Below are positions 42,048 through 60,804 of a stretch of DNA of 64,000 nt, one piece after another (positions within the stretch are counted from its first letter, which is position 1; every line of letters begins with the position of its first letter). The notes under the pieces were generated by a model. That model saw only the letters and a program-made list of their open reading frames with translations, was not told the origin of the DNA and ran no database searches. The DNA is from Acidithiobacillus ferridurans (GTDB taxonomy: Bacteria; Pseudomonadota; Gammaproteobacteria; Acidithiobacillales; Acidithiobacillaceae): NCBI RefSeq assembly GCF_003966655.1, contig NZ_AP018795.1, positions 2,187,501 to 2,251,500 of the forward strand, in the 5' to 3' direction. The position numbers and the translations under genes are program-made.

Positions 42048-42335
42048 TTAACCGAACTTGAAGAGGATGCCGTGACCGCCCCGTGGATAAGACCAGTCCA
42101 CGTTGTGATGTTCGGTACAAATGATCCGACAGGTGCCGCACTCCAGACAGCCGTCCGTGGTCAGGACCACACCACCGCCCTCGTCTTTGGCGTAACAGGC
42201 CGCAGGACAGGCGAAAGTGCAGGACTGTGTTTTACAATCATCGGCGCAGACCTGAGGGTCGCTGATCCGGATATGCGGCCGACCTTCATCGACCCGGTAG
42301 CGGTTTTGAAACAGTTTCTCTTCGATCTTGATCAT
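42048..42335 (-). CDS. fixX: Ferredoxin-like protein FixX
   Basis: 95-residue FixX. The cluster motif [11 protein letters not shown] holds the [4Fe-4S] ligands; [18 protein letters not shown] gives further Cys residues of the degenerate second cluster. The protein ends with [15 protein letters not shown], typical of FixX. It accepts electrons from FixC. The start is ATG 42335, overlapping the fixC stop (ATGA); an extension of 15 residues inside fixC is not used. Confidence 0.95.
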
Positions 42336-43630
42336 CGTGTTGCCCTCCACATGCGGTAAGCGTCTCCCACCAAACCCCACAACGAGCGTTGCTGTATAAA
42401 GCTGCCACGAATGGTCTTCTCCTTGCTGTGCTTATCCTGACCATCGACCATCAGCATGGTATGCGCGGCGCGGTTGAGGAGTTGCGGATACACCGAAAAG
42501 AAATGCGGATTGCCGTGCAGGATATCGGGCAACTCCTTGTACTTCCGCAAGTCTTTCATGACGAAACTGTCGTCCAGCGCGGTTTTGTAACGGGCAAGAT
42601 GGGAGGCCGTACAGGGGAGCTTCATTTCTTTCAGCGCAATAACCGTTTCTGCGGCCAACCGGCCACTGGTCATCGCCAGGTTGGAGCCTTCACGGTGGAC
42701 TGCATTTACCAGTCCGGCGCTGTCCCCCGCAATCATCCAGCCCTCGCCGTAGAGGGTCGGAACCGCCTTGTAGCCCCCTTCGGGAATCAGGTGGGCGGCA
42801 TATTCCTTCATTTCGCCCCCCTCGATCAACGGGGCAATGGCCGGATGTGTCTTGAGTTCTTCGAGGAGGGTATAGGGCGCGATGCCCCCTTTTTTGAAGT
42901 CGGACAAGAGGCAACCGATGCCCAGCGTGATGGATTCCTTGTTGGTATAGAGGAAGGCGGTGCCGACCATGCCGTGGGTGACGGCACCGGCGATCTCAAT
43001 GACCACCCCTTCGTTGCCCTTGATGTTGAAACGGCTTTGCACGACCTCCTCGGGCAGAAAGTGAATTTCCTTGACCGCAAGCGCGACGTTTTTGGCGTCG
43101 AGTTCGCCATGGAACCCGGCTTTTTTGGCTAACAGCGAATTGACGCCATCCGCCAGGATCACCACATCGGCATAAATGTCGCCTCCCTCACGGTCGGTAC
43201 GGACGCCGATGACCTTTTTGCCTTCCTGGATGAGCTCGGTGACCGTCGTCTCGCAGATGACCAATGCCCCCGCCTCCTTGACCTTCCCGGAGAACCACTT
43301 GTCGAAAGGCGCCCGGAGGATGGTATAACGATTGGGCTGGTCGCTGTTAAAGGCATCCGAGCGATAGTTGGTACCGATGAAGGATTTGTCATCCAGCACC
43401 CACATGCGCTGTTCGATGATATGGCGTTCCAACGGGGCATCGTCGCGGAAATCGGGAATGATGCGCTCCAGCGCGTCGGCGTAGAGAATGGCCCCCTGGA
43501 CATTTTTGGTACCAGGGGTTTCACCGCGTTCCAGTTGCAATACGCTCAGACCTGCCTTGGCCATGGTATACGCGGCTGCATTACCGGCGGGGCCGGCACC
43601 TACCACAATGGCATCAAATTTTTCGGCCAT
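42332..43630 (-). CDS. fixC: Flavoprotein-quinone oxidoreductase FixC
   Basis: 432-residue FAD protein related to ETF:quinone oxidoreductase. The dinucleotide motif is [20 protein letters not shown] at residues 5-24, with [34 protein letters not shown] and the second FAD site [20 protein letters not shown]. In the FixABCX complex it takes electrons to quinone on one branch and passes low-potential electrons to FixX. Ribosome-binding site AGGAG. It lies between fixB and fixX. Confidence 0.95.
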
Positions 43631-43646
43631 GTCATGACTCCTGTAA

Positions 43647-44741
43647 TTAACCGGCCCGGCGGTTCACAGCCAGACGGCTGCGAAAGGCGTCGGTGAGGAC
43701 GGGAAGGATCTGCACGGCGTCGCCGACAATGCCATAAGTGGCAAAATCGAAGATGGGCGCATGGGGATCGTTGTTGATGGCGATGATGACGTCGGAGGCT
43801 TCCATGCCGACGCGGTGCTGAATCGCCCCGGAGATGCCCGCGGCAATATAAAGCTTGGGACGCACGGTCTTGCCCGATTGCCCGACCTGACGATCTGCGG
43901 GCAGCCAGCCGGCATGAGTCACTGGACGCGATCCGCCCACTTCGGCGCCGAGCACGGCCGCCAGGTCCCAGATCAGACGAAAGTTTTCGGCTTTGCCCAT
44001 GCCCCGGCCGCCCGCCACGATAACGTCGGCATAGGCGAGTTGCGCCTGCTCCTGGGCCTCGTCGGGGATGAACTCCAGGACTTTGGCGATAATGTCATCT
44101 TCCTGCATCTGCAGGTTTTCAGAAATGATACGACCACTGCGTTCTGGCAGGGGGTCGGGCATGGCCATGACCCGGGGGCGAATGGTCGCCATCTGCGGGC
44201 GGTAGTTCAGGGTCTGGATGGTGCAGAGCAGGCTGCCGCCAAAGGTCGGACGGGTGGCGAGGAGTCCGCGGTTGTCCGGATCAATGGCGAGTTCGGTACA
44301 GTCTGCGGTCAAACCCGTGAGCAGAGTGGTCGCCACACTGCCGGCGAGATCGCGGCCCAGGGTGGTGGCGCCCAGCAGCAGAATCTCCGGCTGGTACTTA
44401 TTGACCAGGTCCGTCATGGCCTTGGTGTAGGGCTCGTTGCGATAGTCTGTGAGAATGGGATCGGCCACGATATAGGCCACATCCGCGCCATAGGTGAAAG
44501 CGCTGCGGGCAGCGGCGGCAAGTTCATCGCTGCTGCCGCCGAGGATGACGGCGCTCAGTTCGACCTTCAGAATATCGGCCAGCTTGCGCCCTTCGCCCAG
44601 TAGCTCCCAGGATACCTGGTGTACCTGGCCCCGTTCCATTTCGACAAACACCCAGATTCCCTTGTAGGCCGCCAGGCGGGGGTCCAGCTCCAGGCGCTTT
44701 TTGCCTTTGGGCTTTGCGGGTGCGGTAGTGTTCTCGCTCAT
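43647..44741 (-). CDS. fixB: Electron transfer flavoprotein alpha subunit FixB
   Basis: 364-residue ETF-alpha. An N-terminal domain starts after a 25-residue Lys- and Pro-rich extension. The FAD-binding C-terminal domain has [52 protein letters not shown] and the terminal [17 protein letters not shown]. It pairs with FixA in the bifurcating flavoprotein. AAGGAGC precedes the ATG. Confidence 0.95.
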
Positions 44742-44760: not shown

Positions 44761-45603
44761 TTATACGGTGATCAGGCCGAGTTCCTGCGCCAGGCGCGGG
44801 TGCTGGCTGCTGAGAATATCCAGGATGGCGTTGGCGGTGCCACCGGCGTCCAGATCGGCGCCGATCATCTGTGCCTTCACGGCCCTGGGCTTGGGGGTGA
44901 ATATCTTGCTGACCACTGTAGGCGAGCCCTTGAGGCCGATTTTGCTCACATCCTCAATACCGGCGCGCTCTTTATTCCATTTCGGCACCTCAAAGCGGGC
45001 CGAGCGGAACATATCACCCATGCTCGCAAAACGAATCTGGTTGCTGCCTTCCAGCATGGTGATCAGGGCGGGCAGGCGGGTCTGGATCACCTGTACACCA
45101 CCTTCAGAACGGCGTTGTACGGTGATGCTGCGCTGCGCAAGGTCCAGAGAGTCGATAGCCGATACGTAGGTGAGGAGTTGCAGGCCCAGGCGCTTGGCAA
45201 TGCCCGGCCCGACCTGCGCGGTATCGCCGTCAATGGTCTGCTTGCCAGTAAACACCAGATCAACGGGATGTTCCTCACCAATTTTACGGATGGTCTGTGC
45301 CAGGGCGAAGGAGGTCGCCAGGGTGTCGGCGCCGGCGAAGGCGCGGTCGGTCAGGAGTATCACGTCGTCGGCACCATAGGCGACGGCCTTGCGCAGTGCG
45401 TCTTCCGCTTGGGGCGGCCCCATGGTCAGCACGGTGACGCGCCCGCCGAAACGGTCTTTGAGGCGCAAGGCTTCTTCGATGGCGAAAACGTCGAAGGGAT
45501 TGATGATGGCGGGTACGCCCTGCCGCATGATGGTATTGGTGACTGGATGCACCCGGATCTGGGCGCTGTCGGGAACCTGTTTGATACAGACGACAATGTG
45601 CAT
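44761..45603 (-). CDS. fixA: Electron transfer flavoprotein beta subunit FixA
   Basis: 280-residue ETF-beta, the site of NADH oxidation in the bifurcating complex. [60 protein letters not shown] and [20 protein letters not shown] fit the FixA/EtfB signatures. It is the first gene of the operon, with AGGAG six bases before the ATG and a -24/-12 promoter about 60 bases upstream. The nif-type FixABCX uses NADH to reduce ferredoxin or flavodoxin for nitrogenase. Confidence 0.95.
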
Positions 45604-45660
45604 GGTGTACTCCTGTTACCGACCTGTCGGTGATCTGAAGAAGCTGTTGCAGTGATCTAA

Positions 45661-45675
45661 GCAATCTTCATTCCA
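45661..45675 (-). promoter_or_regulatory. Sigma-54 (-24/-12) promoter of fixABCX
   Basis: Read on the minus strand: TGGAATG-AAGA-TTGC. The GG and GC dinucleotides have the required 10-base spacing and the -12 TTGC is exact; two positions of the -24 block differ from TGGCACG. Transcription would start near 45650, 47 bases before the fixA ATG. Confidence 0.7.
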
Positions 45676-45752
45676 GATACGCAGGTCTTGTTAATCTCAA
45701 GATAAACAGTCTGTTGGATAAAATGCACCAGAAAAGCAACGCAAGCAGCGGA

Positions 45753-45768
45753 TGTAGGCTTTGCGACA
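45753..45768. promoter_or_regulatory. NifA-type upstream activating sequence (TGT-N10-ACA)
   Basis: TGTAGGCTTTGCGACA is an exact match to the NifA site. Its centre is about 110 bases upstream of the predicted fixA start site, the usual distance, and about 290 upstream of the globin-side start. A chance match in a region this size is possible (roughly one in seven), but the position relative to two sigma-54 promoters supports function. Confidence 0.6.
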
Positions 45769-46022
45769 AAATGCATGCTTTATCACGGTAAACTCCATGC
45801 ATCCGCTGGCGCTCTGCGGCGGGATTGGGGAGTGCGCAGGAACTACGGTGGAAGACGAGGGCCTCACTGACCAGCGTCTGATGAACGGTTGCGAAAGGTG
45901 CATGGTTGGAGAGGTTCTTGTTGATGGGACCAGGTCCACAAGAAGGTAACAAAGCGTACAAGATGTTCAATCTCTTACGGGACGATAAAAAATAACCATA
46001 TGATAATATTGCGGTTACATTT

Positions 46023-46037
46023 TGGCGCGGATATTGC
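46023..46037 (+). promoter_or_regulatory. Sigma-54 (-24/-12) promoter of the globin-TonB-ABC operon
   Basis: TGGCGCG-GATA-TTGC differs from the consensus TGGCACG-N4-TTGC at one position only and has exact GG-N10-GC spacing. Transcription would start near 46048, giving a leader of about 140 bases before the globin start. Confidence 0.72.
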
Positions 46038-46187
46038 CTGCCAAAATGTTGTTGCTGTCCCTATCGAACAACGCTATATTCCGATAAACATATCATATTC
46101 GGGGCAGGCTTCTGCGGGTCTCGGTTCGGTTTCGCTGGGGAGGTGCGCGTCGTGCGTCATATCCGGCCATATATGGAGAGGGAGAAA

Positions 46188-46799
46188 ATGAATATGGAAC
46201 AGGAAAGATCTGTCGTCCTGAAGTTGTCCGTTCACAATGACGCTGTCCTCTCGGTACAGGGTCCGCACTGCCCCGGTTCGGAGACGCTGGATATCCGCCG
46301 TTTTGGCGATGAGGATTCCATAGTGCGTCCTGCCATCACCGATATGCATTTCCCCGAAGTGATTTTTCCCACCCGCCGGGTAGGCCGGGTAGCCGGGGTG
46401 GAAAAGGTCCGGGAACTGGTCGTGGAGCACCATCGCCTCATCTGGCATAGCCCGCTACAACCCATCTTCGGCAACAACGAAAAGCATTTCTGGAAGGCCG
46501 TGGAATTGACGGCGGATTTTCATGCAGAAGTCTGCGGCGGCCCCAAGCTCTATACGGAGCGGCGGGGGCGTCCCCATCTGCGCGAACGGCACTTTCCCTT
46601 CACCATCCGGGAGAAGGATCGTGAACTCTGGCTGGATCTCTATGTGCAGGCCCTGCGCAACGTCGCCTTCCCGCTGGAAGTGGCGGAGGAGTACTGGCGC
46701 TGGGTGGAATCTCTGTCCATCCGCATGATCAACCGCCGCACCACCTTCGCGGAACCGGTGCGGGTGCCTTACAGCCAAATCGCCGCACAGTTGGCCTGA
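46188..46799 (+). CDS. Truncated-haemoglobin-like globin with N-terminal extension
   Basis: 203 residues; a globin domain of about 120 residues (75-195) follows an extension of about 70 with no recognised domain. The core reads SPLQPIF, KLYTERRGRPHLRERHFPF (His in RERH is the expected proximal haem ligand) and LWLDLYVQAL, like group II/III truncated haemoglobins. The usual B10 Tyr appears replaced (EHHRLIW), so ligand chemistry may differ. In-frame starts exist at 46143, 46173, 46188 and 46194; GGAGAGGGAG fits 46188 best. It is first behind a sigma-54 promoter and 10 bases before a TonB-receptor gene. Oxygen or NO handling for nitrogenase, or haem-based sensing, is inference. Confidence 0.72.
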   Translation: MNMEQERSVVLKLSVHNDAVLSVQGPHCPGSETLDIRRFGDEDSIVRPAITDMHFPEVIFPTRRVGRVAGVEKVRELVVEHHRLIWHSPLQPIFGNNEKHFWKAVELTADFHAEVCGGPKLYTERRGRPHLRERHFPFTIREKDRELWLDLYVQALRNVAFPLEVAEEYWRWVESLSIRMINRRTTFAEPVRVPYSQIAAQLA

Positions 46800-46809
46800 G
46801 GAGAGAGTC

Positions 46810-49080
46810 ATGCAACATTTAGCGCGCACTGCATTATATATGTCCATAGCCAGCGTGTTGGCCTGCATCCCGTCTACCGATGCCGACGCCGATGGCGCCC
46901 TGCCAAAACTCGGTACCGTAACCGTGGAGGGGCATCAGAAAAATACCCTGGAAAGCCCTGCCAGCGGCGCTGAGCAGGGGGCCACCATCAGCGGCCATGC
47001 ATTGGACATTCTCGGTGGAGCAGGGCAGACCAATCCTTACGCCGCCATCTCCCTTCTGCCGTCGGTCATGGCCCAGAACCCGGATCCCTATGGTCTGGCC
47101 AACGTACCCGGCGGCAACAAGGGTGTGCGCATCCGGGGCGAGCGCAATCCCCACGGAGGGATTGGCACGGTAGAGGGATTACCCTTGTCCGCCGTCAACC
47201 CCGGCCCCGGCGAGCAGTTTCTGTTCGACATGGAAAACATCCGCAGTATCACGCTGTTGGCACCGCCCTTTTCGCCGGACAAACTGGCCGTATTCACCAC
47301 CCAGGGCTATCTCAACAGCCATGTGCTGTGGCCCCGGGCCAAGTTTGGCGGCGAAGTGGATCAGAGCTTTGGATCCTATGATTTTCATCGCAGCTTCATC
47401 CGCCTGGACTCCGGCACCTTACCCACCGGCACCCGCGTCTTCATCTCCGGGTCGTATACCCATGCGGATCAGTGGCGCGGCCCGGGCGCATCGCCGGACT
47501 ATCGCTATAACGGCGAGATCGGGATCAGCCAGGATTTAGGCCGCACCCTGAGCGCCAAGGTTTATGCAGCCTATGGTTCCATGAAGGAGAACAATTATCT
47601 GCCTCTGACCTATACCCAGGCCAGTAATCTGGGGCAGTACTACAATCTCGGCTATAACAGCACACTCACCGGGAATGTCGCCAACGACGTGAATTATTAC
47701 GGATATAACCGGCAGAAATTCCAGGATTACGCGGTATTCGGGGAACTCAACTGGCATCCCGATGATCAGAACACACTCGTTATCAAGCCCTTCTACAGTC
47801 AGGAAAACGGCTATTACCTGCAGGGATTGAGTAATCTGGGAGGAAAGCCGGGCATACGGGACTGGATCATCGACCATTCCCTCTATGGCGTGGTGGCCCA
47901 ATACGACACCCAATGGCATGGTAATCACTTTTCAGTCGGTTACTGGTTTGAAAATCTAACCCCTCCCGGCCCCCCTACGGATTTCAAGATTTATCGCATG
48001 GTCAACGGCCAGCTCGTTTTTGGTGGTTATGGCCTATTGGCCCGCGCTACGGCGAACCACGTCTTCAACAGTCCCTATTTCCAATGGCGGCGGAAGGTCG
48101 GTCCGGTAACGTTTACGGCAGGCGCTCGTTATCTGATGGAGCAAACGCCATCCTTCAGCGTCTACAATACCGCGGGGATTCCTGACGCATCCTATGCCAA
48201 TGCCTTGAATCTGGCCACCTCCATCAATTCAGCCCGCAGTGTGGAAGGTAGAACCTTCTATCAGTGGCTACCTTATTTTTCGGCGGTTTATGCCGTCAAC
48301 CCAGATCTGGACACGGTCTTTGCCTATGGTCGCAATAATGGTGCTCCTGCCTTCAATAGTTGGCCCTCCGTACAAATGAACTTTGCCGCTTTTCAAAAGG
48401 CTGGGGTGACCGCGCAGCGTGCCTGGGATCAACTGGCGCCGGAAACCTCCAACAGTTTCAGTCTGGGGCTCAAATGGCACGAAGCGGCGTGGTATGTGAA
48501 TCCCACCTTCTTTTACGCCACCTATCGCAATAAATATGTGAATGCCTACGACCCGTTGGTGGGTATCAGTTACGATCAGAACGCAGGCATGGGTCGCGCC
48601 TGGGGCTTTGAACTGGCGGCCGGAGCCAAGCTCTGGCATCGGCTATCCGTGTTCAGCAACCTGGCCTATGACCGCGCCTATTTCACTCAGGATCTGCGTA
48701 CCGGCAGCGGCGCGTTCTTGCCTGTTACCGGCTTGCAGTTTCCTGATACCCCACGCTTCATTGGTAGTCTGGGTGCATTATACGAATATGGCCGGTTCAG
48801 TATTGCGCCCACGTTGCAGTATATGGGCAGCCGCTATGCGGATACCCTGCATACCCAACCCGTGCCGGGCTATCTGCTGGCGAACCTGAACATGGGTTAT
48901 CACTGGCGGATTACCCATGTGGGCGAGCTGACGGTGAATCTGAGTATCCTGAACCTCTTCAACCGCCACTATATCGGCCTCATCGACAGTAGTTATTTGA
49001 GCACTGCGGCATCTGGCGGTGCCAGTTTCTATCCCGGCGCGCCCATCACCGTCGCAGGGACGATAGGGCTACGTTTTTAG
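46810..49080 (+). CDS. TonB-dependent outer membrane receptor 1
   Basis: 756-residue precursor with a signal peptide (about 27 residues) and a TonB-box-like LGTVTVEG. A plug domain (about 50-170) contains GVRIRGERNPHGGIGTVEG and EQFLFDMENIRSITLL; a 22-strand barrel follows and ends with a C-terminal Phe (AGTIGLRF). Such receptors import scarce chelated metals, vitamin B12 or other large ligands using proton-motive force through TonB. GAGGAGAGAG precedes the ATG. It is a paralogue of the next gene; the ligand is unknown. It is the second gene after the sigma-54 promoter. Confidence 0.9.
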   Translation: MQHLARTALYMSIASVLACIPSTDADADGALPKLGTVTVEGHQKNTLESPASGAEQGATISGHALDILGGAGQTNPYAAISLLPSVMAQNPDPYGLANVPGGNKGVRIRGERNPHGGIGTVEGLPLSAVNPGPGEQFLFDMENIRSITLLAPPFSPDKLAVFTTQGYLNSHVLWPRAKFGGEVDQSFGSYDFHRSFIRLDSGTLPTGTRVFISGSYTHADQWRGPGASPDYRYNGEIGISQDLGRTLSAKVYAAYGSMKENNYLPLTYTQASNLGQYYNLGYNSTLTGNVANDVNYYGYNRQKFQDYAVFGELNWHPDDQNTLVIKPFYSQENGYYLQGLSNLGGKPGIRDWIIDHSLYGVVAQYDTQWHGNHFSVGYWFENLTPPGPPTDFKIYRMVNGQLVFGGYGLLARATANHVFNSPYFQWRRKVGPVTFTAGARYLMEQTPSFSVYNTAGIPDASYANALNLATSINSARSVEGRTFYQWLPYFSAVYAVNPDLDTVFAYGRNNGAPAFNSWPSVQMNFAAFQKAGVTAQRAWDQLAPETSNSFSLGLKWHEAAWYVNPTFFYATYRNKYVNAYDPLVGISYDQNAGMGRAWGFELAAGAKLWHRLSVFSNLAYDRAYFTQDLRTGSGAFLPVTGLQFPDTPRFIGSLGALYEYGRFSIAPTLQYMGSRYADTLHTQPVPGYLLANLNMGYHWRITHVGELTVNLSILNLFNRHYIGLIDSSYLSTAASGGASFYPGAPITVAGTIGLRF

Positions 49081-49171
49081 AAGCGCGTTATGGTTCAACT
49101 ATACCAACCGCGTGGCTCTACAAAAACCGTCCCTTTCATAGATATCCAGGATAGATGCAGCAGGAGGCATT

Positions 49172-51403
49172 ATGAAAATTAAGGCCGTCATGCGTTACAC
49201 CGTGTACACGCTCATAATGGCCGCAACGGTGAAGTCGAGCCTCGCGTGGGCGGAAGATGGCGCAAACGCCCCAAAGCTCCAAGCCATTACCGTAACGGGG
49301 AGTGGTCAGACGCCCCTCGTGCTGCCGTCCCTGGGTGCAGGCACAGGTGCCACCATCCCCAACTCCAGCTTCGATCTCTTTCAAAGCCCCGGTGGGACCA
49401 ATGCCTATAGCATCGTCAGTGGACTACCCTCGGTCATGGTGCAGACCACGGACCCATACGGCTTGTCCAGTAGCGGCCCTGTAGGCATCAGCATCCGTGG
49501 TGAAACGAGCATCAAAGGGGCCATCGGCACCGTGGAAGGCATTCCCATCTCCGCCATCGATCCGGGAGCGGGCCAACAATTTTTATTCGATAGCGAAAAC
49601 TTGCGGAGCGTCAGCCTCCTGACTCCTCCTTTCGCGCCAGAGCATATTTCCGTATTCACGCAGGAAGGATATCTCAACCGGAACATTCGCTGGGCTGCGG
49701 ATCATTTCGGCGGCGAAGTCTCCCAAAGCGCCGGTTCCTTCGGTTTTCACAAGACCTTTCTGCGTTTGGACTCTGGGCTGCTGGCCACCGGCACCAAGTT
49801 TTTCATTTCATCCTCCTATGCCCATGCCGACGCCTGGCGCGGGAATGGAGCCGCTCCGGATTATCGGTATAACGGGACATTTGGGGTCACCCAGCGGATC
49901 ACCCGTCGGCTCACGGCAAAACTCTTTGCCGTCTACGACGACATGAAGGGCGCCAGCTACCTTCCCCTCAGCTATGCTCAGGCATCCAATCTTGGTGCCA
50001 ATTATAACCTGGGGTACAACGCGAACCCGCAAAGCCTCAATTATTCCGGATACAACCAGCAAAAATTTCAGGACTATGCCTTGATGGGTGAAATTCGCTG
50101 GCGCACGAGTTCCCATGGCACATTGCTCATAAAGCCTTTTTACATTCAGGAAAACGGTTACACCATGGGTACGGGACTTCCGGGAGTAAAACCCAATCAA
50201 ATTGGTTATTGGAGTATCAATCACCATCTGTATGGCGTTCTGGCCAAATATGATTTTCATTATGCCCAGACGAAATTTTCCCTGGGGTACTGGTACGAAA
50301 ACATTCAGCCGCCAGGGCCCCCCACTGCGGTCAAGGCGTTCAATATTGCTCCTGACGGCTTGCAATTTAGCAACTGGACGCCGTTGCTGGTTAATCCTGT
50401 ATCCAACAATGTTTTCAACAGCCCATATTTTCAGGCGAAGCGAGCATTCGGTCCGGTGACGGTCACCGCAGGTGTCCGCTATTTAACGGAACAAATCCCC
50501 ACGCTCAGTGTTTATAACGGCAGCGGGGTGGGAGATGTGTCACCCAGCCAGGCGATCCGTGATGCGGCATTTAAATACACCATCAATGGCCATACGGATT
50601 ATCAATGGCTCCCCTATATCGGTGCACTCTACCGATTCACGCCGCATGTCAGCCTTACCGCTGCGTATGGCCGGGACAATGGGGGCCCTGCTCTGGAGAT
50701 GTGGCCGAAACTGGTGCTGTCCGGAATGCCGGCAGCGGCTGCCCAAAACGCCTGGAACACCACGCGGCCAGGTACGTCCAACGCTTTTTCCCTGGGTCTG
50801 GCCATTACTCATACGCGCTGGTATCTGCGCCCGGATGTGTTTTACACCACCTACAATCATAAGGACATCCCCATCAATGTACCGGGAACGTCCGCATTTT
50901 ATAATCAGAACCTCGGCGTAGGGAAGGCTTGGGGTCTGGAAATCCAGGGCGCCGTCCAGCCGTTGGATGATCTTCAGGTTTTCGGCTCTGCCGCTTACGA
51001 TCGCGCCTACTTCACTCAAAATATCCCCGACGGCCAAACCATCCTTCCAGTCAGCGGATTGCAATTCCCCGATGTTCCAAAATTCCTGGCCACCCTGGGA
51101 CTTCGTTATCGTTATCACCGATTCACGGTCAGCCCGGTTATTCAATACACGGGCCTGCGTTATGCAGATTCATTGCACACTCAGCCGGTGCCGGCCTATT
51201 GCATTACCAATCTGAATTTCGCCTATCATCAGCCGCTACGGCATGTCGGCGAACTAACCGCAAGGCTGCAGTTCCTGAATCTATTCAATCGTCATTATAT
51301 TGGCCTCATCAGCCAAAACTATGTGCAAACCGGAGCCAGTGCGGCGACTTTCTATCCCGGCGCGCCACTGACCGTGGTCGGTTCCTTGGCATTACGATTC
51401 TAA
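49172..51403 (+). CDS. TonB-dependent outer membrane receptor 2
   Basis: 743-residue precursor. The signal peptide ends near SLAWA, then comes the TonB-box-like LQAITVTG. The plug region (GISIRGETSIKGAIGTVEGI, QQFLFDSENLRSVSLLTPPF) and the barrel align closely with receptor 1 throughout, including the last strand (VGSLALRF), so the two arose by tandem duplication. The 91 bases between them contain an AGGAGG ribosome-binding site but no evident terminator. Ligand unknown; divergence of the loops could give two ligand forms. Confidence 0.9.
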   Translation: MKIKAVMRYTVYTLIMAATVKSSLAWAEDGANAPKLQAITVTGSGQTPLVLPSLGAGTGATIPNSSFDLFQSPGGTNAYSIVSGLPSVMVQTTDPYGLSSSGPVGISIRGETSIKGAIGTVEGIPISAIDPGAGQQFLFDSENLRSVSLLTPPFAPEHISVFTQEGYLNRNIRWAADHFGGEVSQSAGSFGFHKTFLRLDSGLLATGTKFFISSSYAHADAWRGNGAAPDYRYNGTFGVTQRITRRLTAKLFAVYDDMKGASYLPLSYAQASNLGANYNLGYNANPQSLNYSGYNQQKFQDYALMGEIRWRTSSHGTLLIKPFYIQENGYTMGTGLPGVKPNQIGYWSINHHLYGVLAKYDFHYAQTKFSLGYWYENIQPPGPPTAVKAFNIAPDGLQFSNWTPLLVNPVSNNVFNSPYFQAKRAFGPVTVTAGVRYLTEQIPTLSVYNGSGVGDVSPSQAIRDAAFKYTINGHTDYQWLPYIGALYRFTPHVSLTAAYGRDNGGPALEMWPKLVLSGMPAAAAQNAWNTTRPGTSNAFSLGLAITHTRWYLRPDVFYTTYNHKDIPINVPGTSAFYNQNLGVGKAWGLEIQGAVQPLDDLQVFGSAAYDRAYFTQNIPDGQTILPVSGLQFPDVPKFLATLGLRYRYHRFTVSPVIQYTGLRYADSLHTQPVPAYCITNLNFAYHQPLRHVGELTARLQFLNLFNRHYIGLISQNYVQTGASAATFYPGAPLTVVGSLALRF

Positions 51404-51415
51404 AGGGAGCATGTC

Positions 51416-52069
51416 ATGGAGGTTTTATTCCACCTTGCCGCCGTATCCGGGGGTATTCTTTATCTGATGCCGCTTCTGTTGCTGGCGGTACTTTTCGTGG
51501 CCTTGGAGCGAGGCTGGGCGTTGGCCATGATCCGGCGCAAGGGCGACGATCTGTTACGCGATCTGCAAAACAGAAAAGGCCGAGAATCCCTGGAAACGGA
51601 ACTGGCCAAGACGCCGTTCTGCCCGCAACAGGCCGTATTCGCAGCGGTTCTCGCATCCCATGATCTGGCAAGTGGCGAAGCCTACGCCGAGGAGGCGATG
51701 CTGGCCCAGGCGACCTTGCTGGACCGGGGCTTATGGATTCTGGATACGGCAGTCACCCTGGCACCTCTACTCGGCCTGCTAGGTACCATCATCGGGATGT
51801 TCAATGCCTTTCAGATATTGGGTAATCCGGATACCGCGCCAACGGCCATTACCGGTCATGTGGCGGAAGCCCTGGTGGCCACGGCAACGGGTTTGGCCAT
51901 TGCCATTGTGGGCCTGGTGTTTTTTAACGGACTTCAGCAACGGGTCCGTCTGGTGCTGCATCAGATGGAAAGGATCGAGGTGAGCACCCTGAATCGTCTC
52001 TACCGACAGCCTGTCAGGACCCATGGAGATGCCTCTGTCAGCCTGCTGGCACGGCGAGGGGAGGTCTGA
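51416..52069 (+). CDS. exbB: ExbB/TolQ-family proton channel
   Basis: 217-residue membrane protein of the MotA/TolQ/ExbB family. The first membrane helix is YLMPLLLLAVLFVALERGWA. The second and third lie in the family block ILDTAVTLAPLLGLLGTIIG and TGLAIAIVGLVFFN. With ExbD it energises TonB. It follows receptor 2 after 12 bases with AAGGGAG upstream and sits directly before exbD. Confidence 0.93.
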   Translation: MEVLFHLAAVSGGILYLMPLLLLAVLFVALERGWALAMIRRKGDDLLRDLQNRKGRESLETELAKTPFCPQQAVFAAVLASHDLASGEAYAEEAMLAQATLLDRGLWILDTAVTLAPLLGLLGTIIGMFNAFQILGNPDTAPTAITGHVAEALVATATGLAIAIVGLVFFNGLQQRVRLVLHQMERIEVSTLNRLYRQPVRTHGDASVSLLARRGEV

Positions 52070-52070
52070 G

Positions 52071-52466
52071 ATGCGTTATTTCGAGGCCCGCAAGGGGCGT
52101 ATCGAGATCATTCCCATGATCGACATCATGCTTTTTCTGCTGGTGTTCTTCATCATGATCACCTTGCGCATGATTCCCGCGACAGGGATCAGCACCCGCT
52201 TGCCGACCAGCAGCAACGCCCAGGTTTTGCCCAAAACGCCTCTGGTGGTGGAGTTGCGCAGCGACGGCCGTCTGCTTTTTCACGATAAAGCGGTGACGCT
52301 GACCCAACTGGAGCAGCAGTTGGCCCAAAACTACGCCAATCACCCGCAGGTCATCCTGGCGGGCGCGAAAAATGTGACTCTGCAGCAGTTGGTGACCGTC
52401 ATGGACGCCTGCCGCCACGCCGGCATCAGCCAGATGGGCATCGCTACCCGTGCGGGGCGGCCGTGA
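52071..52466 (+). CDS. exbD: ExbD/TolR-family protein
   Basis: 131-residue protein with one N-terminal membrane helix: EIIPMIDIMLFLLVFFIMIT, where the conserved Asp (MID) is the proton-carrying residue. The periplasmic domain follows with LVVELRSDGRLLFHDKAVTL. ATG 52071 comes after GGGGAGG; a longer frame from 52023 runs inside exbB. The GTGA overlap with tonB indicates coupling. Confidence 0.93.
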   Translation: MRYFEARKGRIEIIPMIDIMLFLLVFFIMITLRMIPATGISTRLPTSSNAQVLPKTPLVVELRSDGRLLFHDKAVTLTQLEQQLAQNYANHPQVILAGAKNVTLQQLVTVMDACRHAGISQMGIATRAGRP

Positions 52467-53200
52467 GCACTCTGGCGCTCCCCTCCAGCCCGCAGCCGCC
52501 CAGGGCCGTGGTTTTTCTGCTGGCCCTGATCCTGGAGTCGGGCATTCTGGCGGTTCTGGCCGTCTGGATGCGGGCATCTCCTCTACCCACGCCGGTGATC
52601 ACCCCGCCCATGGCGGTCCAACTGGTTTCCTGGCCGCAGCCCAGCGCCACCCCACAACCCACCCCTCACCCGCCAGCACCCCGGACCGCCGCGTCGATAC
52701 CGCGAAAACCCGTTCCCACCCCGCCCAAGCTGTCGCCAAGACCGCCGCGAGAGGCCAAAGTGCCGGTCCGCACCCCGCTCTCGGCACCGAGTGCGCTGGC
52801 GGCAACTGCAGCCCCATCCACAATCTCCCGGATGCCCGCACCGGTGACATCTGCCGCAGCCACGCCTGCCACACCCGCTTTACCTCCATCCGCTCCCGCT
52901 CCGGCGGCGGAAACCCGCCCCAGCATCCCTGCCTATGTCCACAACCCCGCACCGGAGTATCCCCAGTCGGCGCGTTGGGATGGGGAAGAGGGCACCGTAC
53001 TGCTGCGGGTGCTGGTCAACGTGTCCGGCCTGCCGGAAAAAATAACGGTAGCCCACAGTTCCGGCTATACCAGCCTGGATCGCGCGGCCGAAAAGGCCGT
53101 GCGGCACTGGCGCTTCACCCCCGGCACCCGCGACGGGAAACCAGTGGCCATGCAGGTGGAAGTCCCGATTCGTTTTCGTCTGACGGACGCCAACCCATGA
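52463..53200 (+). CDS. tonB: TonB energy-transducing protein
   Basis: 245 residues. An N-terminal membrane anchor (about 14-37), then a Pro- and Ala-rich periplasmic spacer (about 45-155, with PPKLSPRPPREAKVP), then a C-terminal TonB domain with PAPEYPQSARWDGEEGTVLL and AAEKAVRHWRFTPGTRDGKP. It carries energy from ExbBD to the receptors. The start is GTG 52463, overlapping the exbD stop; the end overlaps the ATPase gene. The dedicated TonB system next to two receptors suggests a specialised substrate. Confidence 0.93.
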   Translation: MSTLALPSSPQPPRAVVFLLALILESGILAVLAVWMRASPLPTPVITPPMAVQLVSWPQPSATPQPTPHPPAPRTAASIPRKPVPTPPKLSPRPPREAKVPVRTPLSAPSALAATAAPSTISRMPAPVTSAAATPATPALPPSAPAPAAETRPSIPAYVHNPAPEYPQSARWDGEEGTVLLRVLVNVSGLPEKITVAHSSGYTSLDRAAEKAVRHWRFTPGTRDGKPVAMQVEVPIRFRLTDANP

Positions 53201-54747
53201 TGCTGCGTGCTGCGCATTTGGCCTATGCCCATGGCCATCGCATGGTCCTGGAAGATGTCTCCCTGCAGTTGAATGCCGGAGAGTCGGTGGCCCTGCTTGG
53301 GGCAAACGGCAGCGGCAAAAGCACCCTCATTCGTCTGCTTCTCGGCATCCTGAAACCGCTGAGGGGCGAGATTCGCCTTCGCGATAGCGACTTGCATGCC
53401 CTATCGGCCAAAGAGCGGGCGCAACGACTGGCTTATGTACCCCAGGACCATGGCGTGGTCTTTCCCTTCCTGGTGCGAGACGTGGTGCTCATGGGCCGCC
53501 TGCCCCACCAATCCTGGCTGGGGGTTGCCAGTGCCCATGATCGGGAGCAGGCGGAAGCGGCGCTCGCCCGGCTGGGTATCAGCGGTCTTGCGGAGCGCTC
53601 CTACATGGAACTGAGCGGGGGTCAGCGGCAACTGGTCATCATCGCCCGCGCATTGGCCCAGGAGACACCGATACTGATTCTCGATGAGCCGGTAACCGGG
53701 CTGGATTATGGCAATCAACATCGCCTGATGGCGCAGATCCAGGACTTGGCGGACAGCGGTTATGCCATCCTTCAGAGCAGTCATTATCCGGAACACGCTC
53801 TTTCCACGGCAAACCGGGTCATTCTGCTGAAGGATGGGCGGGTGCTGGCTGACGGTCCTCCGATAGAGGTGCTTCATCCGCAACACCTACGCGCACTTTA
53901 CGATATAGACACGGAGTGCCTCGAAACCAGCGACGGTCGCCGCGTTATCTTGCCTAAAGCGCTTTCTTCCGCCCTGTCCCAGAGCAGACGCGGAGCCTGT
54001 TTGAACCTGTCTTCTGAGGAATATCCCATGACCCATACTTTACACATTTTTGCCTCCCTCACATTGGCGGAACCTTTTCAGGAAATCATCCAGGGCTTTA
54101 CCAGCGCCCACCCGGATGTCTCTGTGAAACCCACCTATGGTTTTTGCGGTGCGTTGATGGAACAAATGGCGGCGGGTGCGTCCGTCGATGTGTTTGCCCC
54201 CTCTTCGGAGCCCATGCTGGCAAAGGCTGCGGCGCAGGGGTTCGTGCAGACCGATACGGCGGTGAACTATGCACGGAATCGGCTCGTACTCGTCAGTTTG
54301 ATGAGGGATTATCCGCTGGCGCCCAAGCTCGAAGCGCTCATGGAAGAGCGCTATGCGCGCATTGCCATTGGTGATCCAGAATCGGTTCCGCCCGGACGTT
54401 ATGCGCGCATGGCGCTGGAAAAGGCTGGGTTGTGGCAAGACCTGGAAGCGCGCATGCAGAAATACCCCGATGGTCTCCAACCCCTGCAAGCGGTGCTGGA
54501 GGGAAATGCGGATGCGGCCTTTGTTTTTGCCTCGACGGCCAACAGCGCATCGGGAAAAGTCCATATCGTGGATATTCCAGTCGGCGTTTCCATGCATTAT
54601 CCCGTGGCGGTGACGACCAAGAGCGCAGAACCAGAACTGGCCCGCGCTTTTGTCGTCTATCTGCAGACGGACGCTGCACAGAAAGTCCTGGAAATTACGG
54701 GTTTCGCGCCCGCCCTCAGCGCTCAGCCGCTGCTGAACGCTTTCTGA
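53197..54747 (+). CDS. FecE/MolC-type ABC ATPase fused to a ModA-like domain
   Basis: 516 residues in one uninterrupted frame. Residues 1-255 are an ABC ATPase: Walker A LLGANGSGKST, Q-loop PQDHG, signature LSGGQRQL, Walker B ILILDEPVTGLD, switch His in QSSHYPEH; it resembles siderophore, cobalamin and MolBCA molybdate transporters. A linker of about 22 residues leads to residues 278-516, a ModA-like binding domain (HIFASLTLAEPFQEI; GASVDVFAPSSEPML; ARNRLVLVS) lacking a signal peptide. Tethered to the ATPase it would be cytoplasmic, suggesting a substrate sensor. An internal ATG (54028) with GAGGA upstream could also yield the second part alone. ATG 53197 overlaps the tonB stop; ATG 53200 is an alternative. 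Confidence 0.85.
   Translation: MMLRAAHLAYAHGHRMVLEDVSLQLNAGESVALLGANGSGKSTLIRLLLGILKPLRGEIRLRDSDLHALSAKERAQRLAYVPQDHGVVFPFLVRDVVLMGRLPHQSWLGVASAHDREQAEAALARLGISGLAERSYMELSGGQRQLVIIARALAQETPILILDEPVTGLDYGNQHRLMAQIQDLADSGYAILQSSHYPEHALSTANRVILLKDGRVLADGPPIEVLHPQHLRALYDIDTECLETSDGRRVILPKALSSALSQSRRGACLNLSSEEYPMTHTLHIFASLTLAEPFQEIIQGFTSAHPDVSVKPTYGFCGALMEQMAAGASVDVFAPSSEPMLAKAAAQGFVQTDTAVNYARNRLVLVSLMRDYPLAPKLEALMEERYARIAIGDPESVPPGRYARMALEKAGLWQDLEARMQKYPDGLQPLQAVLEGNADAAFVFASTANSASGKVHIVDIPVGVSMHYPVAVTTKSAEPELARAFVVYLQTDAAQKVLEITGFAPALSAQPLLNAF
54014..54030 (+). promoter_or_regulatory. Possible internal translation start of the ModA-like part
   Basis: GAGGA (54014-54018) lies nine bases before ATG 54028, which begins exactly where ModA homology begins (MTHTLHIFASLTLAEPF). 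It would give a free 239-residue protein, 54028-54747, in the same frame as the fusion. Since no stop codon separates the two parts, both a fusion and a free domain are possible products. Confidence 0.45.
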
Positions 54748-54766
54748 AAGTCAAGGAGAACACGAC

Positions 54767-55807
54767 ATGTTGAATACTTTGCCAGGCAAATGGCGTTTAT
54801 CTATTGCGGCGTTGGGCGCCAGCCTCTTGCTCTCATTGCCCTCGTGGGCGGCCACGGCCCCTACCCAACTCCCGCCCCACAGTGTTTACGGCACCGCGCC
54901 GCCAGTGACCCTGCTGATTTACAGTCTCGCCCCGGATTTGCTGGCCGGGTGGAATTTCCCGCTGAATAAAATGGCGGGCCTGGGCATGAGTACGAATTCC
55001 AAGTACCTCTTGCCGGCTACGCGCAATCTGCCGGTACTGGGTGGCTGGGACCCCGGCGACAAACCGGAGCTGGAACGTGTGCTCGCCATTCATCCCAAGC
55101 TGGCCTTGCTCTGGGCGCCTTACCTGGATGATGCCCGCCTGCGTAGCGAGTTACAGCGCATCGATGTGCCCACGCTGACCGTCAATCTGCAAAGTCTGAA
55201 CGACTATCCGGCCGCATACCGTCTGCTGGGAGATCAGTTGGGGCAAGGCGCGCGCGGTGAGGAACTGGCCACGGCCTTTCAAAATATTTTGAGTCGCCTT
55301 AAGGACTTGCGCAGCACCATTCCACAGGCACAGCGCCAGACAGTCTATTACGCGGAAGGCGTGGATGGCCTGATGACCGACACGGCGAATTCTCCCCATA
55401 CCGAAGTGATCCGTGCCGCAGGCGGTGATAACGTCTTTACCGGCAAGGCGACGGCACTGAAGGGGATGGAACGGGTGAGTATGGGGCAGGTGCTGGCCTG
55501 GAATCCCGACGTGATTCTGGTGCAGGACCCGGTGTTTTACCGGCGCGTGTATAGCCTTCCGGCCTGGCAGGGCCTCCAGGCGGTAAAAGCACATCGGGTT
55601 TACCTGGTGCCCCGGCAGCCTTTTAACTGGATGGATCGTCCACCTTCCTTCATGCAGGGCTTGGGGGCTCTCTGGCTCGCGCACGTGTTGTATCCGCAGG
55701 CATTCAAAATCCATCTGAATCAGGAGATACAGGACTTCTTCAAGACATTTCTGCAGGTCAACGTGAGCAAGGCGCAGGCGCAGGCGCAGGCGATGTGGCG
55801 CCCGTGA
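54767..55807 (+). CDS. Periplasmic binding protein of FecB/BtuF/MolA type
   Basis: 346-residue precursor with a signal peptide (cut probably after PSWAA, about residue 29). The two-lobed class III binding fold is visible in VLGGWDPGDKPELERVLAIHPKLALLW, LTVNLQSLNDYPAAYRLLGD and GMERVSMGQVLAWNPDVILVQ. Such proteins bind ferric siderophores, haem, cobalamin or, in the MolA branch, molybdate and tungstate. It has a strong AAGGAG. It overlaps the permease gene. A short AQ repeat (CAGGCG units, 55771-55792) encodes the C-terminus. Confidence 0.88.
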   Translation: MLNTLPGKWRLSIAALGASLLLSLPSWAATAPTQLPPHSVYGTAPPVTLLIYSLAPDLLAGWNFPLNKMAGLGMSTNSKYLLPATRNLPVLGGWDPGDKPELERVLAIHPKLALLWAPYLDDARLRSELQRIDVPTLTVNLQSLNDYPAAYRLLGDQLGQGARGEELATAFQNILSRLKDLRSTIPQAQRQTVYYAEGVDGLMTDTANSPHTEVIRAAGGDNVFTGKATALKGMERVSMGQVLAWNPDVILVQDPVFYRRVYSLPAWQGLQAVKAHRVYLVPRQPFNWMDRPPSFMQGLGALWLAHVLYPQAFKIHLNQEIQDFFKTFLQVNVSKAQAQAQAMWRP

Positions 55808-56829
55808 GGATAACGGCACTACCAGAGTCGGCCAGGAGGCTGACTTTACCACTGTTGCTCTTGCTTCTGGCCGCCATGGCGGTGCTGGAGATGTCCTGGG
55901 GGCACTACCCGCTGTCCTGGCTGCAATTCTGGCAATGGCTGCGGGGCAGCCCTTTGTTGGCGCCGGACAAAGCCATGCAGATCCATTTGTTGATGGTGGA
56001 GATCCGCCTGCCGCGCCTCTCCGTGGCGATCCTCGTGGGTGCGGCGCTGGCGGCCAGTGGTACCGTCTTTCAGGCGGTGTTCCGCAACCCGCTGGCGGCC
56101 CCAGATATTCTGGGCGTCATGGCAGGAGCCGCCTTCGGGGGCGCCTTGGGCATCATCCTGGGCGGTCCCTGGTGGACGATACAGATGGCGGCCTTTGTTT
56201 TTGGGCTGATCGCCGTGGCGATGGCTTACCTGATCGCCCGCCATTTTCCGGGGCAGCCCACTCTGATGCTGGTGATTGGCGGCATCCTGGCCGGAGCCTT
56301 GTTTACCGCACTGCTTTCCCTGGTGAAATATGCCGCCGATCCGTACCAGCAGCTACCCAGTATCGTTTTCTGGTTGATGGGCAGTCTTTCCAACGTGCCC
56401 CTGCGCCAGATACCCTACTTCGCCCTGCCGGTTTTTGCCGGGATCGCGCTGTTGATGTTGCAAGGGCATCGCCTCGATGCCCTCAGTCTGGGGGACGAGG
56501 AAGCACACAGTCTTGGTCTGCCAGTGCGCCAGATCCGTTTGCTGGTCATCGTGCTCGCAACGTTGTTGGCGGCCATGGCGGTGATGATGGCGGGGATGAT
56601 CGGCTGGATCGGGCTCATCATCCCCCATCTGGGACGTCTGCTGCTCGGGCCGGGCAACCGCCGTCTGTTGCTGGGAAGCAGTATTCTCGGTGCCGCGTAC
56701 CTTTTGCTCGCAGACGCCCTGGCCCGCAATCTGTTCTCCGTGGATGTTCCGGTGGGCGTATTTGCGGAACTTCTGGGGGTGCCAGCGTTTTTGCTGGTGC
56801 TCCGGCAGATACGGAAGGCGTGGGTCTGA
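55795..56829 (+). CDS. FecCD-family ABC transporter permease
   Basis: 344-residue polytopic permease, about ten hydrophobic segments, of the FecCD/BtuC/MolB family. Motifs include VEIRLPRLSVAILVGAALAA, GTVFQAVFRNPLAAPDILGV, FWLMGSLSNVP and GMIGWIGLIIPHLGRLLLGP (the coupling region). One gene is expected to form a homodimer. GTG 55795 and GTG 55804 are both possible starts, inside the end of the binding-protein gene. It is the last gene of the plus-strand series that begins at the globin gene. Confidence 0.92.
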   Translation: MAPVRITALPESARRLTLPLLLLLLAAMAVLEMSWGHYPLSWLQFWQWLRGSPLLAPDKAMQIHLLMVEIRLPRLSVAILVGAALAASGTVFQAVFRNPLAAPDILGVMAGAAFGGALGIILGGPWWTIQMAAFVFGLIAVAMAYLIARHFPGQPTLMLVIGGILAGALFTALLSLVKYAADPYQQLPSIVFWLMGSLSNVPLRQIPYFALPVFAGIALLMLQGHRLDALSLGDEEAHSLGLPVRQIRLLVIVLATLLAAMAVMMAGMIGWIGLIIPHLGRLLLGPGNRRLLLGSSILGAAYLLLADALARNLFSVDVPVGVFAELLGVPAFLLVLRQIRKAWV

Positions 56830-56891: not shown

Positions 56892-58103
56892 TCACTCGGC
56901 GTGCGCTGGGAGAGGGAGGGGCTCGTCAATCACCAGTGTCACTCCCGCCGCCGAGAGCAATGCCTCCAGGGCCGGTTCCAACTGCCCGGCGCGCATGTGA
57001 ATTTCGTCCGCCCCCTGGGCGATGAGCCATGCCGCCAGCCGTATGCCGCGCCCTTTTTCGGCGCCGGGTACGGGGTTGTTCAGGGTTTGGGTATTCACCA
57101 GGACACCTTCGTGGTTTTCGTCCTCAAAACGAATACGCTGCGCCATGCCAAAGCGCGTGGCCAGCGCCGATCCCTCCTCGGTCAGAAGGAATGCCCGCCT
57201 TTTATAGGGCTTGAAGGGCGGCTCATAATGAAGCGTGATGTTTTCCAGCTCGGGGAACGCCTCTTGCAGACGTTGCTGGGCGCGGTCGGCTACTTCATGG
57301 GCGTGCGCGAAGTTCGCCGCGGCGATACCGATGGTGGCGTCCGCGAACAGGACACTCCCGGCATGGCGCAGACGCAGTCCCTCCACGGTTTCCACTTCCG
57401 GCGTGGTCAGCAGCAGATTTTTCGCCTTCGCGTACAGTTCGGATTCCACCGAGGCGTCCAGCAGGGAGAGGATGGCGTTTTTCAGCACCCCCCAGGTGCC
57501 CTCCAGAATCAGGAAGAGGATGATGAGGACGGCAATCTCCTGGGCAAAGGGTATCCGCAAGAGATGCCCGCCGATTCCGGCGATGACCACGACACCGGCG
57601 CCGATATCGCCCAGCCAGTTGACCACATCGCTTTGTAGTCCGGGGGAGTGGAGGCGGGCGGCGGCGCGTCGTTCGAAAACATAAAAAATCCCCTCGGCCA
57701 CCAGAACGACCGTCATGAACCCCATGGTGGCCAAGGGATTGTCAGGTGGCCGCGCACCGCCGGAGAAAAACACCGCGCGGGCGATCTCATAGGCGGCAAT
57801 GACGACCAGCAAGGCACCGCCCAGGGCAGCCATGTCCTCCACCTTATGGAGACCGTACGGAAACCGCAAGGAGCGGTGGCGGGAAAAGCGGATGGCCGCA
57901 AGGATGAGCAGGGCGCCCAATACATCGGAAATGCTATGCACGGCGTCGGCGATGACGACGGTGCTGCCGGAATAAACGCCCCAGCCGATTTTTGCTATGG
58001 AAAGCAGGCCATTGAGCCCCGTCGATGCCATCATCCAACGGGATTTCTGCCGTTCCGCCAGGTCAGAGGGGGTGGTTTTTTTCGGTGTATCCATCGCCTC
58101 CAT
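56892..58103 (-). CDS. Cation diffusion facilitator transporter with C-terminal NifX/FeMo-co-binding-like domain
   Basis: 403 residues from ATG 58103 (ATGs at 58094 and 58151 are alternatives). CDF membrane part, about 20-215: metal site A would be HSISD in helix 2 and NWLGD in helix 5 (HxxxD plus NxxxD, not a standard set for one metal). A ZT-dimer-like cytoplasmic domain follows (about 215-298), then about 95 residues with TRFGMAQRIRFEDENH, NPVPGAEKGRGIRLAAWLIA and a GADEIHMRAGQLEPALEAL helix, like the dinitrogenase FeMo-cofactor-binding (NifX/NifB C-terminal) fold. It lies 74 bases after the porin gene, convergent with the uptake operon. A link between metal transport and cofactor metal is inference. 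Confidence 0.82.
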   Translation of the reverse strand: MEAMDTPKKTTPSDLAERQKSRWMMASTGLNGLLSIAKIGWGVYSGSTVVIADAVHSISDVLGALLILAAIRFSRHRSLRFPYGLHKVEDMAALGGALLVVIAAYEIARAVFFSGGARPPDNPLATMGFMTVVLVAEGIFYVFERRAAARLHSPGLQSDVVNWLGDIGAGVVVIAGIGGHLLRIPFAQEIAVLIILFLILEGTWGVLKNAILSLLDASVESELYAKAKNLLLTTPEVETVEGLRLRHAGSVLFADATIGIAAANFAHAHEVADRAQQRLQEAFPELENITLHYEPPFKPYKRRAFLLTEEGSALATRFGMAQRIRFEDENHEGVLVNTQTLNNPVPGAEKGRGIRLAAWLIAQGADEIHMRAGQLEPALEALLSAAGVTLVIDEPLPLPAHAE

Positions 58104-58177
58104 GGTCCCCGTCTGCCCAGCCTCCGGCAATGATACCTTAATGCAGTCCATCTTCCACGCATCATCTATGATCGGCG

Positions 58178-59506
58178 CTAAAACTTGTACGTCATCATCA
58201 CTCGGTTGTACACAAAGGAGTGTTGTCCTGAGCCCGGAAACAGTCCGACCGCACCACCATTCCCCACCTCCACCTGATCCCGTAAACACAGTCCCTTAAA
58301 CATGCCTTGGGGGAAATAGCTCACGTTAAAGTGGGTCCAGTTGCTGTTCCCCGAAAAATAGGTAGTGAATTGTGAGTAGCCTGCAGTCAGTTGGACTTGC
58401 TCAGGCAGCACCCAGTAAGCGGCCCGCACCCGCCAGCCATGACCCGGACCCACGCCGACCAGGCCCTGCATCATGCTATTCACATACAGCGGGTCTGCTG
58501 TATAGCCGATGGTATAGGGAGAAATAATGGCGCCGCCGCCCAAGGCGTGAGCATGCAATTCTGTAGCATCATAACCCCACCACAGACTTCCGTGAGGAAA
58601 TGCGATGCCGGTCTTGATACCCCAGTTGGTACTGTTGACGCCCTGGCCCGGTTGCCCGAAAAGCGTAGTGGCGGTATTGGCAAAGGTCTCTCCGGCACCC
58701 CATTCCCGGGTGAATTGCGCATCCACAAAGGGCTTGAGGACGAAGGATGTCGGCAGGGCGTAGTGACCGTTCCAGTAGAACATGTTGGCGAATTGATCAA
58801 ACTGATAAAACCAGGCGGCGGTTTCTGCGTGATATGCGTGATATTGGGCGCCAAAGGCGAGCGCTCCGTTGGTGGGTGGGGTACCGGCGGGTAGCACGTT
58901 GGGTCCGCCATAGAGGGAGTCACCCTCATAGTGGCCGGGATAATAGAGGTTATCCCGGTAGAACTGGTCGGTGGTGCGGTCTTTCCAGCGGAAAATCCGC
59001 AGCGCGCTGAGTTGCACGCCGCGGAAGGGATGGGCCTCCAGGGTTACTCCCTGATAGGTGACGGGGATCACCCGCCCACCGACCCGGTTTAGCCAGGGGG
59101 TATCTACCAACTGATTGCCTGCCTTGGCGGTGATCCATTTGTCCTGATATTCCAGATAGGCCTGACCCAGTGCATTGACGGAAGGACTGGTACCCATGAG
59201 GGTCTTGTCGATCCGGGCCGGATTGCTGGGCTGTGTGCCGAGAGCATTGGCGGTGTAAAAACTGACGCCGATACGGAAGCCCGAGAGAAAGGGCGCGGTG
59301 ACGACGTTGATGCGTCCGGCCAGGGAGTAGGCATACGCATTGACGGTGTTGGGGGTGCCATAGAGGCGACTGAAGTAATAGGAACGGATTTGTCCATCAA
59401 TATGACTTTTCGCAAAAAACTGGGACAGGGTTTCGGCGTGGGCACTGGCGTTGAAGGCACCCATCAGGCTGGCTGCTGTCATCAGATGAAGGATGTTTTT
59501 CTGCAT
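58178..59506 (-). CDS. Outer membrane porin, OprD-like
   Basis: 442-residue precursor with a signal peptide (cut probably after ASAHA, residue 23) and a beta-barrel rich in aromatic residues, ending with Phe (VMMTYKF). The start of the mature chain, LSQFFAKSHIDGQIRSYYFSRLYG, and the mid-barrel AFGAQYHAYHAETAAWFYQ resemble OprD-family substrate-specific porins. It lies between the WtpA-type binding protein and the CDF gene in the same orientation, so it may admit the same oxoanion or metal. AGGAGC precedes the ATG. Confidence 0.8.
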   Translation of the reverse strand: MQKNILHLMTAASLMGAFNASAHAETLSQFFAKSHIDGQIRSYYFSRLYGTPNTVNAYAYSLAGRINVVTAPFLSGFRIGVSFYTANALGTQPSNPARIDKTLMGTSPSVNALGQAYLEYQDKWITAKAGNQLVDTPWLNRVGGRVIPVTYQGVTLEAHPFRGVQLSALRIFRWKDRTTDQFYRDNLYYPGHYEGDSLYGGPNVLPAGTPPTNGALAFGAQYHAYHAETAAWFYQFDQFANMFYWNGHYALPTSFVLKPFVDAQFTREWGAGETFANTATTLFGQPGQGVNSTNWGIKTGIAFPHGSLWWGYDATELHAHALGGGAIISPYTIGYTADPLYVNSMMQGLVGVGPGHGWRVRAAYWVLPEQVQLTAGYSQFTTYFSGNSNWTHFNVSYFPQGMFKGLCLRDQVEVGNGGAVGLFPGSGQHSFVYNRVMMTYKF

Positions 59507-60595: not shown

Positions 60596-60621
60596 GTGCT
60601 CTACTCCTGTGGTTTGCGAAA

Positions 60622-60661
60622 TATATGGATGAATATACCGGCAACTATTTTTTGCTGTCAA
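60622..60661 (-). promoter_or_regulatory. Sigma-70 promoter of the WtpA-type gene with overlapping palindrome
   Basis: On the minus strand: TTGACA (60661-60656), an 18-base spacer, TATATT (60637-60632). TATAT-GGATGA-ATATA (60622-60637) is an inverted repeat over the -10 and start site, similar in form to ModE operators (TATAT arms) but short-armed. Repression by a molybdate-responsive regulator is a guess. Confidence 0.5.
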
Positions 60662-60702
60662 CAGGTTTTTTAAGCTGGTTATACCCCGATGTGTCATGAA
60701 TA

Positions 60703-60717
60703 TGGCATCTTTTTTGC
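60703..60717 (+). promoter_or_regulatory. Sigma-54 (-24/-12) promoter of the AAA+ ATPase operon
   Basis: TGGCATC-TTTT-TTGC has exact GG-N10-GC spacing and a strong -24 and -12. Transcription would start near 60729, 76 bases before the start codon. No perfect NifA site is seen upstream; TGT-N10-ATA at 60608-60623 (one mismatch) is at a suitable distance. Confidence 0.68.
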
Positions 60718-60804
60718 TGCATCTTCCACGCGGTCCCATTACCCACTTATTTGTTCGATTTATGACAATAATGTGTATTTATTGACATTTTAAGGAGAGG
60801 CTTT

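Follow-up and report, generated by a model that had tools for sequence, protein, structure and literature searches.

On balance, the intergenic region between fixA and gloA in this Acidithiobacillus genome seems to carry two back-to-back sigma-54 promoters, each with activator sites of its own, and Fur probably also acts at gloA. At fixA there is a clear, conserved nitrogen-fixation switch, and gloA probably has a separate switch of the same type. The idea that a single NifA site serves both operons, put forward in an earlier note on this DNA, is thereby corrected.

The window, i.e. the whole stretch of 64,000 nucleotides that was analysed, comes from Acidithiobacillus; relatives identified in the comparison included A. 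ferruginosus, A. ferrivorans, A. ferrianus and A. sulfuriphilus, the last of which belongs to a sister genus and not to Acidithiobacillus. The host genome contains nifH about 17 kb outside the window, and profile searches placed both nifA (705.6 bits) and rpoN (516.7 bits) above the curated cut-offs. Positions 45604-46187 make up the entire gap between fixA (44761-45603, minus strand) and gloA (46188-46799, plus strand). The product of fixA matches the Pfam ETF family (151 bits); it is the first gene of fixABCX, with fixB (43647-44741), fixC (42332-43630) and fixX (42048-42380) also on the minus strand, and its orthologues form a block in the relatives. gloA encodes a truncated globin with an N-terminal extension (Pfam Bac_globin, 59.9 bits) that is related to PDB 4nk1, a hemoglobin-like protein (155 residues matched, 156.7 bits). 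It is followed on the plus strand by an uptake operon (46810-56829), recognised by domain searches, the A. ferrooxidans version of which has been described (PMC2631029). All three motifs listed in the earlier note were present where it placed them, and both promoters and the TGT-N10-ACA site do fall within this one gap.

The -24/-12 element of fixA, TGGAATGAAGATTGC (TGGAATG-N4-TTGC; 45661-45675, minus strand), has GG and TTGC at the correct spacing and predicts a transcription start at about 45650 (minus strand). A perfect TGT-N10-ACA, TGTAGGCTTTGCGACA (TGTCGCAAAGCCTACA as entered for the fixA strand), is found at 45753-45768 on the minus strand. Its centre lies at -110, inside the range of ~80-150 bases upstream that is typical of NifA-dependent sigma-54 promoters. 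The ~110 bases given previously hold for the predicted transcription start of fixA; measured to the start codon, the distance is about 157 bases.

Both elements are highly conserved. Eight Acidithiobacillus members and A. sulfuriphilus keep them, and in an alignment of nine genomes 14 of the 15 promoter columns and all six core bases of the NifA-type site are invariant. A. sulfuriphilus keeps 15/15 promoter bases and 6/6 site bases, again at -110, and the remaining columns upstream of the -12 element match at 51 of 113 (45%). Two further loci, with FixA proteins ~82% identical, have the site at -111. Among 74 more distant fixA loci a recognisable promoter was seen directly upstream in 7, every one of which has a site at -99 to -111, while controls drawn from coding sequence yielded 9 promoter-like matches and no pairs. 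Within the genus, the promoters of nifH, the nifB-like gene that follows nifA and the hesB-like gene display the same layout, with sites at -84 to -137, and TGTAGGCTTT is common to the fixA site and a nifH site. Based on this conservation, the constant spacing, the resemblance to nif promoters and the distant fixA loci, NifA/sigma-54 control of fixABCX, which is a known kind of control, is very likely. The earlier note had proposed such control together with a scan of related genomes; on the fixA side the -24/-12 element and the TGT-N10-ACA are kept in the eight genus members compared and in A. sulfuriphilus, and the proposal is strongly backed. In all probability, NifA occupying 45753-45768, 110 bases ahead of the start, would enable RpoN-polymerase to open the promoter. 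An IHF site is often, although not always, found between activator site and promoter; at fixA the best match (7/9) was no better than in shuffled sequence. IHF-site matches were mostly of this kind, and none stood out.

Motif counts alone carry little meaning here. The window contains 6 TGT-N10-ACA, against 9.0 expected from shuffling, and 29 TGG-N8-TTGC, against 13.9 (0 of 100 shuffles as high). This roughly twofold excess of the latter over positions 1-64000 may perhaps be caused by codon usage. At promoter spacing, chance would supply only ~0.03 promoters for every 300 bp on one strand and 0.012 TGT-N10-ACA for every 85 bp. The pairing of an activator site with a -24 element was considered as a specific marker and rejected, as genome-wide counts gave several chance pairs in each nif-less member of the genus. 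These counts covered gaps of 45-106 bases, and the inner site of the gloA block described below, 43 bases from the -24 element, falls just outside that range. Because neither motif is rare and pairs are also present in nif-less genus members, conservation was chosen as the main test, and it raises the fixA pair well above chance. In this genome, 6 of the 9 pair matches from two genome-wide searches lie in the nif/fix region of roughly 100 kb (one at fixA, two at nifH, two after nifA and one at the hesB-like gene).

On the other side of the gap, the -24/-12 element of gloA, TGGCGCGGATATTGC (TGGCGCG-N4-TTGC; 46023-46037, plus strand), predicts a start at 46048 (plus strand) and is kept in 5/5 nif-bearing genomes with a readable gloA upstream region. 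The -24 elements of these genomes read TGGCACT, TGGCACC (twice), TGGAACG and TGGCGCG, each followed by N4-TTGC; GG and TTGC are fixed and the bases between them vary. This pattern makes it quite probable that 46023-46037 is a sigma-54 promoter, and it argues against a fortuitous match upstream of a gene that is really transcribed by sigma-70 under Fur control. Such an arrangement seems unlikely, but it has points in its favour: a sigma-70-like TTGCTG-N17-TATATT can be read from the sequence at 46052-46080 (plus strand), with TATATT invariant in the five genomes, and the literature (PMC2631029, PMC2621215, PMC11910503) includes a predicted Fur box at gloA and a citation of gel-shift binding. 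PMC2621215 states that such a box lies upstream of gloA, and its gel-shift validation is cited in PMC11910503 (2025). A 19-base Fur consensus gave no significant match at gloA, so that the box could not be placed in this way, and Fur control would in any case be compatible with sigma-54. From the literature, Fur probably acts on gloA too and, since Fur binding is reported there, several regulatory inputs at gloA are likely. In this genome, but in none of four relatives, the -24/-12 element lies within an inverted repeat, CATTTTGGC...GCCAAAATG (46018-46048, plus strand).

The most conserved stretch upstream of gloA in the five genomes is a tandem block at 45945-45979. It consists of two near-consensus sites on the plus strand, GGTAACAAAGCGTACA (45945-45960, centre at -95) and TGTTCAATCTCTTACG (45964-45979, centre at -76), each a 5/6 match. 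In this genome both halves deviate from the consensus, each at one of its six positions, which is why the block escaped the earlier note. In three relatives (G008, G010 and G014) the second site is a perfect TGT-N10-ACA at -76 or -77, the block there being GGTAACAAAGCGTACA-AGA-TGTTCARTCTCTTACR with one additional base change in G010. In A. ferrianus the first half lacks one base. In the nif-less relative G005, which has kept parts of the cluster, a deletion takes out the gloA promoter and the tandem block is eroded. We regard it as an even call whether gloA is activated from these tandem sites, most plausibly by NifA. Matches of 5/6 are common by chance and both sites reach only 5/6 in this genome, and -76 is nearer than the other sites of the genus (-84 to -137). 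Conservation at gloA also weighs less than at fixA, because the five gloA genomes are closely related.

The block might instead be bound by another enhancer-binding protein, with gloA still dependent on sigma-54. The fully invariant core, AAGCGTACAAGATGTTC, reaches past the TGT and ACA triplets, as it might for a different activator, and 11 loci in this genome besides nifA match the central region of the NifA model. We consider this improbable in view of the perfect TGT-N10-ACA in the block of three relatives and the loss of both promoter and block in nif-less G005.

A sigma-54 promoter at gloA, as claimed in the earlier note, is thus likely given the conserved -24/-12 element; its dependence on a NifA site shared with fixA was not backed. 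For one site to serve both operons, 45753-45768 would have to loop to the promoter on either side. In favour of this, the TGT-N10-ACA there is perfect and conserved, and this genome, G010 and G014 all have it inside the shared region; enhancers are able to work across some hundreds of bases. However, its position relative to the predicted gloA start is -287 here, -211 in G014, -301 in G010 and -1994 in A. ferrianus, which retains the gloA -24/-12 element although the fixA site is 2 kb distant. The -287 and -1994 spacings are outside the -84 to -137 of the genus, and gloA has a block of its own. On the gloA side the earlier note was thus right in part. The fixA site is unlikely as an activator of gloA, and we hold it very doubtful that one site drives both promoters.

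The shared arrangement itself appears to result from gene loss. In A. ferrianus gloA and fixA are separated by an intact amine-oxidase-like gene, one also found upstream of fixA in genus members without gloA at this place. A remnant of it is present in the window (45811-45904, minus strand; 94-base match, 82-86% identity). Given the intervening gene in A. ferrianus and the remnant in the window, the divergent region is best read as a deletion product in which a gloA control region once apart from that of fixA has been brought next to it, and this too speaks against a shared site. Loss of the amine-oxidase-like gene would have united two control regions with no common site required. The expected outcome of two adjacent switches would be that electron supply to nitrogenase and Fe/Mo uptake are turned on under the same nitrogen-fixing conditions.

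A palindrome-like sequence, CGCTATATT-N6-AACATATCA, is located in the gloA leader (46072-46095, plus strand). A better palindrome, CGATATATT-N6-AATATAACG, lies upstream of the gloA remnant of G005 (L171) and recalls the box of a molybdate repressor. A ModE-regulated operator was considered for the suggestive palindrome in the leader and rejected, as a full-length molybdate-binding ModE was not found in the genome. The sole ModE-like protein is a helix-turn-helix protein of 123 aa, encoded away from the mod genes, that scored 86.1 bits against a cut-off of 98.5.

The uptake operon encodes two TonB-dependent receptors, ExbB, ExbD, TonB, an ATPase-ModA fusion, a FecB-like protein and a FecCD permease. 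The second receptor (49172-51403, plus strand) is intact here, whereas the G014 copy shows an internal gap and G010 retains only fragments. At 53197-54747 (plus strand) a single reading frame of 516 aa joins a FecE/BtuD-type ABC ATPase to a ModA domain, the latter scoring above its cut-off. The fusion is also present in G006; G014 encodes ATPase and ModA separately, on either side of another receptor gene, and the fusion thus looks like a deletion product. A cation diffusion facilitator (56892-58289, minus strand), noted earlier as CdfB (PMC2631029), has a C-terminal stretch that resembles a FeMo-cofactor (NifX-like) domain but scores below the Pfam cut-off. For the wtpA-like gene (59672-60739) no sigma-54 promoter was seen, only a sigma-70-like TTGACA-N18-TATATT. 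At 60703-60787 (plus strand) a sigma-54-like promoter, TGGCATCTTTTTTGCT, faces an AAA-ATPase gene, and its predicted start is followed at ~30 and ~50 bases by two tandem TGT-N10-ACA. Five genomes keep the promoter and both sites, with a single-base exception in the second site of G013. It would be unusual for activator sites to lie on the downstream side of a start. The distant genome G171, without nifH above cut-off, contains two tandem globins of the gloA type (L188, 5334-10640) adjoining a related receptor and three FecB-like genes, with no sigma-54 promoter upstream of the globin. Given its occurrence in G171, the module of globin, receptor and binding protein is not tied to nitrogen fixation.

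As a tentative interpretation, a globin-led, TonB-dependent Fe/Mo uptake operon could have been recruited to the NifA/sigma-54 regulon by way of a tandem block of its own, with Fur control retained. If so, metal supply would answer to both iron status and nitrogen-fixation status, the sigma-54 part being missing in the non-diazotrophic relative. The Fe/Mo uptake operon of iron-oxidising acidithiobacilli would then belong to the nitrogen-fixation regulon, which would explain how metal import is matched to nitrogenase demand in acidophiles of iron-rich water. No earlier statement to this effect was found in the searchable literature, and the available portions of PMC2631029, PMC2621215 and PMC11910503 contained no mention of sigma-54 or NifA for the fixA or gloA promoters.

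The A. ferrooxidans gloA cluster has been described as Fe and Mo transport dedicated to nitrogenase (Osorio 2008, PMC2631029). As far as that source could be consulted, genes, order and neighbourhood beside fixABCX and nif are alike, and for regulation it turns to Fur and a globin sensor rather than to sigma-54 or NifA. A further difference is that ATPase and ModA form a single reading frame here (two genes in G014). In proteobacterial diazotrophs, nif and fix promoters that depend on NifA and RpoN have TGGCACG-N4-TTGCW with TGT-N10-ACA (PMC4999443). The fixA -24/-12 element and its perfect site at -110 agree with this, as do the nifA and rpoN genes of the host, but the fixA -24 element is TGGAATG rather than TGGCACG and the gloA sites are imperfect here. 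In some Alphaproteobacteria modABC is predicted to be under NifA (PMC4999443), which likewise places nitrogenase metal supply under this activator; unlike modABC, the operon here combines TonB-dependent receptors, a FecCD-type permease and a globin. The fixA and gloA switches fit the known biology of nitrogen-fixing bacteria, to which they would add a testable link to metal supply.
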